A stretch of 64,000 bases of DNA from Candidatus Uhrbacteria bacterium. GTDB lineage: Bacteria > Patescibacteriota > Patescibacteriia > 2-12-FULL-60-25. Positions 29,001 through 33,500 of the stretch are shown one piece after another. Below the pieces are notes generated by a model. The model made no database searches and was not told the origin of the DNA. It saw only the letters and a list, made by a program, of their open reading frames with translations. Each line of letters opens with the position of its first letter. Within the stretch, counting starts at the first letter, position 1. A program made the translations under genes and the position numbers. Location: assembly GCA_003576745.1 (NCBI GenBank), contig QEVR01000002.1, forward strand, positions 423,884-487,883. Reading direction: 5' to 3'.

Positions 29001-30083
29001 ATGCGGAACGCCCTTCTTTTTTCCCTCGTCCTCGCCCTCCTTTTGGGAGCGGCGCCCGTGCGCATCGCGCATGCCGCGATTCTCCCTTCGGATCTCGTGC
29101 GTTCATTCGATGTGGATACGATTTATTACGTTTCTCCCGCGGACGGCAAACGATACAGCTTTCCCTCCGTCGGCGTTTATCATACCTGGTACGCGAATTT
29201 TGAACGGGTAGCATTCGTTTCCGCGGAGGAATTGGCGGCGATTCCGTTCGGAGGCGTGGTATATGTGCGGCCGGGGTCCGCCATGGTAAAAGTGACGACC
29301 GATCCCAAAACCTATGCCGTCGCGGCAGGCGGAAAGCTCCGCCATGTCGCGAATGAGGAAGCGGCCGCGAGCGTGTATGGCGCGGACTGGAACACGCATA
29401 TTATCGACATCGATCAGGCATTTTTCGCGAATTACGATATCGGCGCGACGGTGGCGGGGGCCGATGACTATGTCCCCGCATACGAACTCCACATGAACGG
29501 AGAAATTTTTCAGACACTTGATCGGCCGGCCGGGGGAGCGGGCGCCGCGCCCCAGAGCATGAACGGAACACTGCCTTCGTCCATCGGCGCAGGATCAGGA
29601 TTCTACGCCGAAACCGCTATGCTCTCACCGTCGAATGCCGACCGCATGCTTCTGGCCGCGAACGATGTTGTATTCGCGCGATGCGAAACAAGCGTATGCG
29701 CGGGCGTAGCCGGACCCTTTTTTAACGCGGAAAATATCAAGGTCGAAAGTTATGCATGTGATGCATATCGAACATGCCGGCGAACCGCGCTCGGTTCCGT
29801 TCATATTCTGCCATCATCGTCCATGCCGAACTTGTCCGTGAACTTCGATCATCATATAGGAACCAAAACGGCCACGCTCACGCTCGCGGCCTCGGGCGGC
29901 ACGCCGTCGCATATCTCCATTACCCGCGAAGCGGGGCAAACAACGACCTGCGCGAATACGAATGTCTGCCAAACAGAAAGCCCCCCGCTTTCCCTTGGCC
30001 CATACACCTATACTGCCCTTGCCTGCGACGAGGCTCGCCGTTGCGTGTTTGCGGATCCCATAACCATCGGCCCTTTGTATTAA
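29001..30083 (+). CDS. Secreted paralogue 1 with shared N-terminal module
   Basis: 360 residues. Signal peptide LLFSLVLALLLGAAPVRIAHA, then a module of about 140 residues also found in the next two genes: LPSDLVRSF, YYVSPADGKRYSFPSVGVYHTWYANF, VYVRPGSAMVKVTTDPKTYAV, GGKLRHVANEEAAASVYG and IIDIDQAFFANYDIG. After a Gly/Ala linker the C-terminal region differs: CETSVCAG, CDAYRTC, TTTCANTNVC and CDEARRC. Four closely spaced Cys pairs suggest disulfide-bonded repeats. TATCCT lies 14 bp before ATG 29001. Extracellular location is inferred from the signal peptide; the function is unknown. Confidence 0.8.
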   Translation: MRNALLFSLVLALLLGAAPVRIAHAAILPSDLVRSFDVDTIYYVSPADGKRYSFPSVGVYHTWYANFERVAFVSAEELAAIPFGGVVYVRPGSAMVKVTTDPKTYAVAAGGKLRHVANEEAAASVYGADWNTHIIDIDQAFFANYDIGATVAGADDYVPAYELHMNGEIFQTLDRPAGGAGAAPQSMNGTLPSSIGAGSGFYAETAMLSPSNADRMLLAANDVVFARCETSVCAGVAGPFFNAENIKVESYACDAYRTCRRTALGSVHILPSSSMPNLSVNFDHHIGTKTATLTLAASGGTPSHISITREAGQTTTCANTNVCQTESPPLSLGPYTYTALACDEARRCVFADPITIGPLY

Positions 30084-30102
30084 CATCGCCTCCTCGCCGA
30101 AA

Positions 30103-30128
30103 GCCTCCCGTAGCGCGGGGGGCGTTTT
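30103..30128 (+). terminator. Intrinsic terminator after paralogue 1
   Basis: GCC(T)CCCG / CGGG(G)GGC hairpin with a TTTTC tail. Confidence 0.65.
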
Positions 30129-30146
30129 CGTGTAAGATATAGGCAT

Positions 30147-31553
30147 ATGAAACGATGCCTCTTTTTCCTCTCCGTCGCTTTGGGCCTTCTATCCGTTGCT
30201 GGCGCGAACGCCGCAACGCTTTCCCCCGGCGATCTCATAAAGGCCTCCGGGTCTGCCGTGTACTATTACGGCGCGGACGGGACGCGCCTCGCATTCCCGA
30301 ATGAAAAAACGTATTTCACGTGGTATGCAGACTTCTCGTCGGTGAAAACCGTTACTGATGCGGAGCTCGCGGCCATTCCGTACGAAGGCAAGGTCGTCAC
30401 CTACCGCCCGGGTACGCGAATGCTAAAACTCACCACCGATCCAAAGGTGTATGCCGTAGGTCCGAAAAATGAACTGCGCTGGATCACAAATGAACAGATC
30501 GCGGGCGAGCTATTCGGAAGCGGCTGGGCCATGCAGGTGGACGATCTTCCCGATGCCTTCTTTGTTTTTTACAATATCGGATCGAGTATTGCGCAGGCAT
30601 CCGAATACAGTGCCGATGCGCTGAAAAACGAGGCGCAAAATATCGGCGATCTCGCCCCCGCGCCGTCGCCCGAACCCGGACCCCTTCCCGAACCCGAACC
30701 GAGTCCCCTGTCATTCAATCTCACCATGACGCCGAGCAAAGCCGAAGCTCAACCGAATGAGGGCGTAGATCTTTTGGCGCAGACGAATTATCCGGGACAA
30801 ATACAGACCCTCGATATTTTCGTAAACGGCAATCTGTATACGTCATGCGCATCCGTCACCAGCTGTTCCATCTCGTGGAAAATCCCAACCATCTCCTATG
30901 CCGCGGAATACGTGTATACGGCGCGTCTCGTGACCATGAACGAGGGGACATTTGAGGCGACCGGAAAAACGGCCGTGGTCATGGAGCCGCTCCATGCGTC
31001 CATCCAGGTGAACCTGGAACGCGAAACGATACGGCCGAATCAAATCGCCTATGTCCGTTCGCAGGTGGTGCAGGGCCTGACCGCCGCAAAGAATGAAATT
31101 GTCATAGACGGCGTGGCCGTAAAAGCGTGCACCTCGACGCCCGGCGATTGTCGGTACCAGGATTATGTAGCGGGGGAAATCGGTTCCACGCATCAAGTAT
31201 ATGCGCGCGTGGAAACGCCGGACGGTCTCAAGTACCGGAGCGCGGCAAAGACCCTGACCATCGCGGAGAATGATACGCCCATCATCACGCTCGGGACGAG
31301 CCTCGGTTCCATATATCCGTCCGAAACCGTCGAGGTTCATGCCGTGGCGAATGATGATGATGGCGTGGACTATGTCGAGATCCTGTATGAGGAACAAGTG
31401 ATGGCGCATTGCATCGGCGCACTTCCCTGTTTTGTGTATATCGGGCCATTCAAGGACAAGCCGAGCGGAACCGTGCTGGAATTCAAAGCGCGCGCCGCGG
31501 ATTTGCTCGGCGCGATGGGCGAAACCACGGGCGGATACGTTCTTCTGAAGTAG
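30147..31553 (+). CDS. Secreted paralogue 2 with Ig-like C-terminal domains
   Basis: 468 residues. Signal peptide ends near AGANA; then the shared module: LSPGDLIKASGSAVYYYGADGT, FPNEKTYFTWYADFSSVKTV, TYRPGTRMLKLTTDPKVYAV, ELRWITNEQIAGELFGSGW and DLPDAFFVFYNIGSSI. A Pro/Glu linker (PSPEPGPLPEPEPSP) leads to about three Ig-like beta domains with repeated Cys pairs (CASVTSC, CTSTPGDC, CIGALPC), resembling the Cys motifs of paralogue 1. It lies 63 bp after paralogue 1. Probably a surface or secreted adhesion/binding protein; the ligand is unknown. Confidence 0.82.
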   Translation: MKRCLFFLSVALGLLSVAGANAATLSPGDLIKASGSAVYYYGADGTRLAFPNEKTYFTWYADFSSVKTVTDAELAAIPYEGKVVTYRPGTRMLKLTTDPKVYAVGPKNELRWITNEQIAGELFGSGWAMQVDDLPDAFFVFYNIGSSIAQASEYSADALKNEAQNIGDLAPAPSPEPGPLPEPEPSPLSFNLTMTPSKAEAQPNEGVDLLAQTNYPGQIQTLDIFVNGNLYTSCASVTSCSISWKIPTISYAAEYVYTARLVTMNEGTFEATGKTAVVMEPLHASIQVNLERETIRPNQIAYVRSQVVQGLTAAKNEIVIDGVAVKACTSTPGDCRYQDYVAGEIGSTHQVYARVETPDGLKYRSAAKTLTIAENDTPIITLGTSLGSIYPSETVEVHAVANDDDGVDYVEILYEEQVMAHCIGALPCFVYIGPFKDKPSGTVLEFKARAADLLGAMGETTGGYVLLK

Positions 31554-31624
31554 CGCATCATCCGTTGACGTCCCCCGGTATTGCGGGCATCATAACAATC
31601 ACATTTATTCATTCTTCACCATAT

Positions 31625-32419
31625 ATGATGAAACGACTCCTTACATTCATCGCGGGCATTGCCGTGTTCGCGACCAGCGTTCTGCCCACGAGCGCGGCCA
31701 CGACGGACGTTGCCTTAAGCCCCGGCGATCTTATTACAAGCAATCAAACGCAGGCGGTGTATTATTACGCCCCGGACGGCCGCCGGTATGTGTTCCCGAA
31801 TGAAAAGACCTATTTCACATGGTATCCGGATTTTTCGACGGTTAAGGTGATTGACCATGGCAGGCTCTCCACCCTCCCGCTCGGCCGCAGCAATGTCACC
31901 TATCGCCCGGGCGTAAAAATGGTAAAGATCACCACGGATCCGCGCACCTATGTTGTGGAACGCGGCGGCATTCTGCGTCATGTTACGAGCGAGGAACTCG
32001 CCAAAACGCTGTATGGCACCAATTGGAAGGACAAGATCGAGGACGTCCCGGATGCGTTCTTCTCCAATTACAAAGTCGGAACGCAAATCGACACGGCATC
32101 CCAGTACAGCCCGGCGGACGTCACGAATACCACGGCAACCATTACGCAGGATAAGAGCTTCGACGACACCATCGCAACCATCTCCATCGGAAATATTTCT
32201 AATGGATTCGTGCCGAAGAGCCTTACCATCAAAAAGAACACGCGCGTAACCTGGGTCAATCGCGACATTGCGGATCATACGGTTACAGGGACCGGATTCA
32301 ATTCCGGCAATATCCCCGCGGACGGCGAATTCAGCTATACCTTTAAGAACGTGGGGTCGTACAACTACTCCTGCTCCATTCACCCGAGCATGACGGCGAC
32401 GATCAACGTGGTGGAATAA
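31625..32419 (+). CDS. Secreted paralogue 3 with C-terminal cupredoxin domain
   Basis: 264 residues. The signal peptide (RLLTFIAGIAVFATSVLPTSAA) is followed by the same module: LSPGDLITS, AVYYYAPDGRRYVFPNEKTYFTWYPDF, TYRPGVKMVKITTDPRTYVV, GGILRHVTSEELAKTLYG and DVPDAFFSNYKVG. The last 90 residues are a plastocyanin-like fold: NISNGFVPKSLTIKKNTRVTW, then DHTVTG and YNYSCSIHPSM. These give the classical type-1 copper ligands His, Cys, His, Met. It is therefore probably a blue-copper electron carrier or copper binder outside the cell. First of two adjacent ATGs used. Confidence 0.88.
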   Translation: MMKRLLTFIAGIAVFATSVLPTSAATTDVALSPGDLITSNQTQAVYYYAPDGRRYVFPNEKTYFTWYPDFSTVKVIDHGRLSTLPLGRSNVTYRPGVKMVKITTDPRTYVVERGGILRHVTSEELAKTLYGTNWKDKIEDVPDAFFSNYKVGTQIDTASQYSPADVTNTTATITQDKSFDDTIATISIGNISNGFVPKSLTIKKNTRVTWVNRDIADHTVTGTGFNSGNIPADGEFSYTFKNVGSYNYSCSIHPSMTATINVVE

Positions 32420-32440
32420 GCCCTTGCCCGCCAAAGATGC

Positions 32441-32470
32441 AACACCCCCGCTCCCGCGGGGGTGTTTTTT
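32441..32470 (+). terminator. Intrinsic terminator after paralogue 3
   Basis: AACACCCCCGC / GCGGGGGTGTT with a TCCC loop and T-run. Confidence 0.9.
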
Positions 32471-32504
32471 CGATTATGCCCATGACTGCTACAATGGTCC
32501 GCAT

Positions 32505-33500
32505 ATGCCAGCCCCCAAAAAACCGGGAATCCTCGGATGGATTCTCTATGCGATGGCCCTTATTGCCGGCCTCGCCATTATCAGTTCGATCGTTCAGTCC
32601 ATAACATCCTGGCCCGCATCCAAAACTCGCGGCATCGCCACGAACCAGATGGGCGAAGGCGTTGCCGGATATGCGGCGCCGGACATGATGCCCTTCGGAG
32701 CGCCGGTGGAGAGCAAATTCATGGACGCCATGATCGCTCCCTCGCCGATGCTTCCCCCGCCCGTTGGCGGAGGATCGACGAACCGCGACCTTGAAGGAAA
32801 TGTCCCGGAACCGAAAATCATCCGAAACGGCGATTTGAATCTCCGAGTTGCCGACGCCACCGAGGCCATGGCCGCGGCGCGGAATATCGCGAATGGCGCG
32901 CAAGGATTCGTCGAGCAATCGTCGGTCAGCGATACGGGAACAGGGCCGCGTACGGGATATATGACCTTGCGAATCCCGGCGGCGGCATTTGACGATGTCT
33001 TCGGCAAACTGAAAGCGCTCGCCGTGGTGGTTCTCCATGAAGAAACCGGCGCACAGGACATCACCGCCCAATTTATTGATCTGGAGGCAAGGCTCAAAAA
33101 TGCAAAAGCGGAAGAAGCATCGTATGTCGCCATATTAAGCCGCGCCGGCGATATTGAAGACGTGCTCATGGTGACGCGCCAGCTCGCCGAGGTGCGCGGC
33201 CGTATTGAGCAGATGCAGGCTGAGCAACGGTATCTTGAAAATCAGACGGACCTCGCGACTATACGGCTCACGCTTACCGAAGAAACGCGTTTCGAAATTC
33301 CCTCGCGCACCTGGAAACCCGGAGAAGTGCTGCGGCAGGCTTTCCAGGATCTTGTTCTTTCCCTGCAGGGATTTGTCGATTTCCTCATCCGCTTTACCAT
33401 CGCCCTCCTAGGCCTTCTCCTCCCCGTCGGCGCCTTTGTCGCGCTTCTCATCTGGATCGGCTGGCGGCTCGTGAAAGCGGTGCTCCGCAAGATCAAATAA
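32505..33500 (+). CDS. DUF4349 membrane protein
   Basis: 331 residues. N-terminal transmembrane helix (ILGWILYAMALIAGLAIISS), a linker, then a DUF4349 domain from EPKIIRNGDLNLRVADATEAM through GYMTLRIPAAAFDDVFGKL, QDITAQFIDLEARLKNAKAEEASY and a coiled coil (QLAEVRGRIEQMQAEQRYLENQTDLATIRLTLTEE). A second transmembrane hairpin near the C-terminus (FLIRFTIALLGLLLPVGAFVALLIWIGW) completes it. The family is widespread but uncharacterised; it resembles anti-sigma or envelope-stress proteins in layout. TACAAT (32490-32495) lies 9 bp before ATG 32505 with no Shine-Dalgarno. Confidence 0.88.
   Translation: MPAPKKPGILGWILYAMALIAGLAIISSIVQSITSWPASKTRGIATNQMGEGVAGYAAPDMMPFGAPVESKFMDAMIAPSPMLPPPVGGGSTNRDLEGNVPEPKIIRNGDLNLRVADATEAMAAARNIANGAQGFVEQSSVSDTGTGPRTGYMTLRIPAAAFDDVFGKLKALAVVVLHEETGAQDITAQFIDLEARLKNAKAEEASYVAILSRAGDIEDVLMVTRQLAEVRGRIEQMQAEQRYLENQTDLATIRLTLTEETRFEIPSRTWKPGEVLRQAFQDLVLSLQGFVDFLIRFTIALLGLLLPVGAFVALLIWIGWRLVKAVLRKIK

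Follow-up and report, generated by a model that had tools for sequence, protein, structure and literature searches.

Three genes that lie in tandem in a genome of Candidatus Uhrbacteria, one of the ABY1 lineages of the Patescibacteria, each encode a protein that begins with a signal-peptide-like sequence and continues immediately with the same module. What does this module do, and why is it joined to different domains? To our knowledge, little is known about how Patescibacteria build their envelope and display proteins on it. In what follows, the window is the whole stretch of DNA that was analyzed (64,000 nucleotides), S1, S2 and S3 are the three genes or their products, and a carrier is any protein that contains the module.

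Three tandem genes and their surroundings

An earlier reading of the sequence by itself (below, the sequence-only reading) had noticed a module of about 140 residues in three successive secreted reading frames. BLASTP comparisons bear this out, in that the modules of S1, S2 and S3 are pairwise 43-49% identical over about 140 residues (E 1e-33 to 1e-49), and the motifs quoted in that reading are present.

All three genes are on the forward strand. S1 (29001..30083) encodes 360 amino acids: a signal peptide, the module with its two repeats (29079..29480) and two Ig-like units rich in Cys pairs (29574..30071). S2 (30147..31553) encodes 468 amino acids, with the module (30210..30620) separated by a Pro/Glu linker from three Ig-like units (30732..31550). 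S3 most likely starts at ATG 31625 and not at the listed TTG 31409, because the latter falls within the S2 gene. With this corrected start, S3 (31625..32419) encodes 264 amino acids, consisting of a signal peptide, the module (31703..32119, with repeat 1 at about 31721-31906 and repeat 2 at about 31901-32098) and a cupredoxin domain (32162..32416).

Terminator-like hairpins are found upstream of S1, in the gap between S1 and S2 (30103..30123, forward strand) and, with 11 pairs and therefore strong, 3' of S3 (32441..32466, forward strand). These hairpins, all of them matches to a consensus only, suggest that S1 is transcribed by itself and S2 and S3 together. A DUF4349 membrane protein is encoded directly 3' of S3 (window 32424-33500), and its family also adjoins the array in several other genomes.

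The array sits in an old syntenic locus, whose conserved order is rpiB, rpe, the array and transketolase. Rpe is present in 34 of 41 loci, as is transketolase, and some loci end at contig ends. In 25 of 42 cases, the gene immediately upstream of the cupredoxin carrier encodes an Ig carrier. In some Uhrbacteria (L129 and L133, also L119, L124, L128 and L138) the array instead consists of cupredoxin-like carriers, two or three in tandem, and the Ig carrier is absent. A recent tandem duplication that gave rise to S1-S3 is ruled out by the module tree, because the modules of S2 and S3 belong to separate old clades and that of S1 pairs only with a carrier from another Uhrbacteria genome (L099:2620-3714).

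C-terminal domains

The sequence-only reading distinguished three kinds of C-terminus, namely disulfide-rich repeats in S1, Ig-like domains in S2 and a type-1 copper domain in S3. However, a profile of the Ig-like unit built from relatives of S2 finds two units in S1 as well as three in S2, with a whole-sequence E-value of 3e-10 for S1 in a search of two sequences. Because the S2-type profile recovers the units of S1, the C-termini of S1 and S2 are, as judged by profile, one family of Big_7-type Ig-like units. All units contain at least one C-x(4-6)-C pair: two pairs (C-x(4-5)-C) per unit in S1 and one (C-x(5-6)-C) in S2. The C-termini are thus of two kinds rather than three and only S3 differs, so it is still the case that they do not all belong to one family.

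The assignment of S3 to the type-1 copper cupredoxins held up at the level of sequence. Its C-terminus matches Pfam Copper-bind (PF00127) with 24.0 bits against a cut-off of 21.2, its nearest solved relatives in the PDB are amicyanins and a cupredoxin domain of a nitrite reductase, and it holds the full His-Cys-His-Met ligand set (H218, C250, H253 and M256 in S3 numbering). In these respects it resembles cupredoxins of the amicyanin/plastocyanin type. It differs from them in being fused to the module, and in most of its orthologues Asp replaces the Cys ligand. Among 42 cupredoxin relatives, all four ligands are kept in 10, the S3 of the window among them, and the position of the Cys ligand is occupied by Asp in 27 and by Cys in 13. 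On the tree, the states at this position need 8 changes, of which at least 5 are forced by well-supported branches. That Asp should be preferred is surprising, given that two base changes are required to go from Cys to Asp. Orthologues such as L058:5959-6750 and L113:5911-6699 are natural cupredoxins with Asp in the type-1 site.

Repeats and fold of the module

Searches of Pfam, NCBIfam, PHROGs and PADLOC with the module gave nothing above chance. The module is therefore not a known domain in any of the family libraries searched, and it would qualify for description as a new family of domains.

The module is composed of two homologous repeats of about 60 residues, whose HHalign probability is 95.8, whereas the highest value among 30 column-shuffled controls is about 10. 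The consensus of the repeat reads PGTLVKITSDPAVYYVGADGKRRVFPNEKVAFSWYADFSKVDDISDAFLANYPLGGNV. Structure prediction, which had been proposed as a check, gave a confident AlphaFold2 model of the two-repeat module from an alignment of 131 relatives (pLDDT 97.1, pTM 0.87). In a PDB fold search with this model, ranks 1-10 are all EccB, a component of type VII secretion (best E 4.8e-3, prob 0.96, TM 0.33). A profile of the repeat also matches EccB1, with an E-value of 0.0036 when built from 84 repeats and 6e-5 when built from 102 more diverse ones; the matches ranked over EccB1 (Crov588 and designed beta-propellers) are each pieced together from numerous very short stretches. When 131 module sequences were searched with Pfam EccB, the family reached only E 0.06, in one member.

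The EccB repeats have been reported to resemble the lysin subunit PlyCB, and peptidoglycan binding has been proposed for them without experimental proof (PMC4769845). Among predicted viral structures, the best fold match of the module is a 115-residue phage protein without known function (E 1.8e-6), followed by a CHAP protein (prob 0.89), an amidase (0.85) and a lysozyme (0.63). The record of Weasels2, the phage of the best match, contains no sequence match to the module.

Fold and profile searches agree, although weakly, and the repeats appear, on borderline evidence, to be EccB/PlyCB-like, with a similar repeat length. Unlike EccB, the module is free-standing or fused to many domains, and neither a transmembrane helix nor secretion-system genes are evident for its carriers. 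The poor whole-domain superposition (TM 0.33) would fit repeats that are arranged differently in the modelled module. One other likeness was considered and set aside: the second half of the module weakly resembles NdhS (10 of 131 members, best E 1e-5), but the PDB fold search ranked EccB and not NdhS.

Distribution and partner domains

With a profile of 131 rows, the module was found in 120 of 144 genomes of its own class, with up to 17 copies per genome. An earlier sample of the phylum had it in 22 of 22 genomes of the class, and the figure from the larger class sample is the better one. The module is also present in 34 of 265 genomes sampled from the rest of the phylum. The genome of the window has six copies, and most named relatives come from Candidatus Uhrbacteria and other ABY1 lineages. 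Collections of plasmids, phages and viruses yielded no module relatives, and hence no link to mobile elements.

We collected 213 carriers in the loci that were fetched. In complete carriers, the module is N-terminal in 119 cases and C-terminal in 50, while 7 proteins consist of a signal peptide and the module alone; several of these stand-alone proteins occupy the position of S1, beside S2 and S3. A signal-peptide-like start is present in 172 of 183 complete carriers. The sequence-only reading had called for a search for further domain partners in Patescibacteria, expecting one module to carry various domains, and the related genomes contain many more than the window does. Some partners are peptidases or of a wall type (M23, trypsin-like peptidases, PG_binding_1, CAP, and PA14 with SpoIID). 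Others are Ig-like domains (Big_1, Big_5 and Big_7), cupredoxin, CARDB, fn3 and LamG. A carrier from a genome of another class (L034:703-3381) combines PA14 and SpoIID with seven tandem module-type repeats at its C-terminus.

It had also been suggested that the module acts as a cap, or serves export or surface attachment. The first two jobs are unsupported, because export is done by signal peptides and because about 50 complete carriers have the module at their C-terminus; the part of the suggestion that concerns surface attachment is likely to be correct.

Other means of attachment were sought in the carriers. By a simple hydropathy rule, none of 183 complete carriers has a C-terminal membrane helix, and LPxTG was matched 4 times within the last 60 residues of carriers. 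Lipoprotein anchoring was rejected as a general explanation, as there are only 8 lipobox-like matches in 186 complete carriers and most are unconvincing. In one carrier of the window's own genome (L037:3231-4523) a Cys ends the signal peptide (IGQGC), and this protein is possibly a lipoprotein. Concerted evolution of the modules within a genome was also rejected: within-genome similarity is slight overall (0.492 versus 0.472) and there is none in the module's own family.

A large carrier as a candidate S-layer protein

The largest cluster of partners has 47 members, most of which have 1150-1650 amino acids when complete. Judged from the lengths of open frames, such a large carrier is present in about 20 of the 22 class genomes of the first sample. 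Its members mostly have a pI of 4-5, are rich in Thr, Ser, Ala, Gly and Val, contain 0-1% Cys and have one anchor region. This composition is that expected of S-layer proteins, although it is not specific to S-layers. A model of the large carrier is all-beta (pLDDT 83), and several members have a third, divergent repeat after the module. The representative in the window's own genome (L036:4490-8473, contig C2) has about 1300 amino acids and is acidic, secreted and all-beta, with the module at its N-terminus.

Solved S-layer proteins were sought in a fold search with the large carrier, but the top 50 matches are only generic multi-domain Ig-like proteins, and a literature search found no paper linking Uhrbacteria and S-layers. 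The large carrier resembles an S-layer protein, and we regard it as a candidate for the main surface-layer protein of these cells.

A proposed anchoring role and its alternatives

From the domain make-up, repeats, distribution, partners and secretion signals described above, we infer that the module is probably a non-covalent surface anchor of ABY1 Patescibacteria, built from two EccB-like repeats and working in the manner of CWB2 or SLH domains. According to this proposal, signal peptides would export the carriers, and the exported module would bind some constituent of the wall or surface layer of the same cell. The bound module would then keep the attached domain, for example an Ig-like stalk, a cupredoxin or a peptidase, at the surface. 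The large carrier of about 1300 amino acids would be the main surface-layer protein, with S1-S3 as accessory surface proteins that use the same anchor.

The closest parallel is with Clostridioides difficile, in which CWB2 motifs occur at the N- or C-terminus of a family that includes the S-layer protein, proteases, wall enzymes and adhesins, and in which the anchor is proven (PMC4973711). The module and the CWB2 (PF04122) proteins, SlpA included, have in common a repeated anchor motif, located at either terminus and joined to diverse partners. However, CWB2 proteins have three motifs of about 100 residues, as opposed to two repeats of about 60 in the module, a putative anchor. SLH (PF00395) repeats, of about 55-60 residues, are likewise mobile between surface proteins, with a probable link to an S-layer protein; the module usually has two repeats, to which the large carrier adds a third. 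Across 131 module sequences there was no match to CWB2 or SLH in Pfam, so the module is a member of neither family. It nevertheless has the feature by which such anchors are recognized, in that a motif is repeated and lies at one or the other terminus of exported proteins of many kinds.

Several observations favor an anchor. The partners are extracellular, the module occurs at either end or alone, and it is widespread in the class. The predicted fold and the profile matches point to EccB, and several of the viral fold matches are phage lysins. In addition, the large carrier has an S-layer-like composition and often a third repeat, and the C. difficile family offers an analogous architecture. 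Since no C-terminal membrane helix was found, the carriers show no alternative anchor. What speaks against this reading is, first, that the fold resemblance to EccB is borderline and that the binding of EccB itself to the wall is unproven. The top-ranked viral match lacks a known function, and the large carrier matches generic Ig-like structures only. Moreover, carriers with PG_binding_1, and the possible lipoprotein, would need no second anchor. Finally, modules that share a ligand would be expected to resemble one another within a genome, and that resemblance is slight overall and absent in the module's own family.

The main rival is that the module is a protein-protein docking domain, which would join accessory proteins to one another or to the large carrier, as in a lattice or a cohesin/dockerin-like arrangement, and would bind no wall polymer. 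The stand-alone module proteins adjoining S2 and S3 in several genomes would suit such a role, their partner could be the large carrier with a third repeat, of which there is one per genome, and the conservation of aromatic and RPG positions is also what a protein interface might show. We nonetheless consider docking unlikely, as no complementary second domain family was noticed next to the module, the carriers that contain M23, SpoIID or PG_binding_1 suggest a link with the wall, and arrays of up to seven tandem repeats in distant relatives fit polymer binding. Somewhat less likely still is that the module binds glycans outside the cell, on a host cell or in a biofilm, so that carriers attach to the host and not to their own cell. 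Patescibacteria are often host-dependent, and the partners include adhesin-like Ig and LamG domains. However, an S-layer-like carrier, peptidases and PG_binding_1 proteins also have the module, the carriers show no other means of staying on their own cell, and the module occurs throughout most of a class whose hosts must be numerous.

Electron transfer had also been raised as a shared role, and S1-S3 might in principle form an electron-transfer or copper system capped by the module. The complete type-1 site of S3 and its amicyanin-like relatives are in keeping with this. Yet a metal site is lacking in two of the three proteins, S1 and S2; copper ligands have been lost in most orthologues of the cupredoxin, whose ligand state changed several times on the tree; and the neighboring genes belong to the pentose-phosphate pathway. 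Copper is therefore not the common function of S1-S3, and we consider such a system very improbable.

Implications for the Patescibacteria surface

Anchoring to the cell's own surface is accordingly the reading that we prefer. We put forward more tentatively, as a possibility somewhat short of an even chance, that ABY1 has an entire surface system, so far undescribed, in which the module serves as the common anchor. In such a system, the S-layer would be formed by the carrier of about 1300 amino acids, and each genome would encode up to a dozen or more accessory proteins, S1-S3 among them, that are displayed by means of the same EccB-like repeats. Because the module is present in most genomes of one class, it provides a sequence tag with which the surface proteome of these bacteria can be listed, and the large carrier is a testable S-layer candidate. 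The module may also extend the EccB/PlyCB-like repeat to a general role in anchoring.
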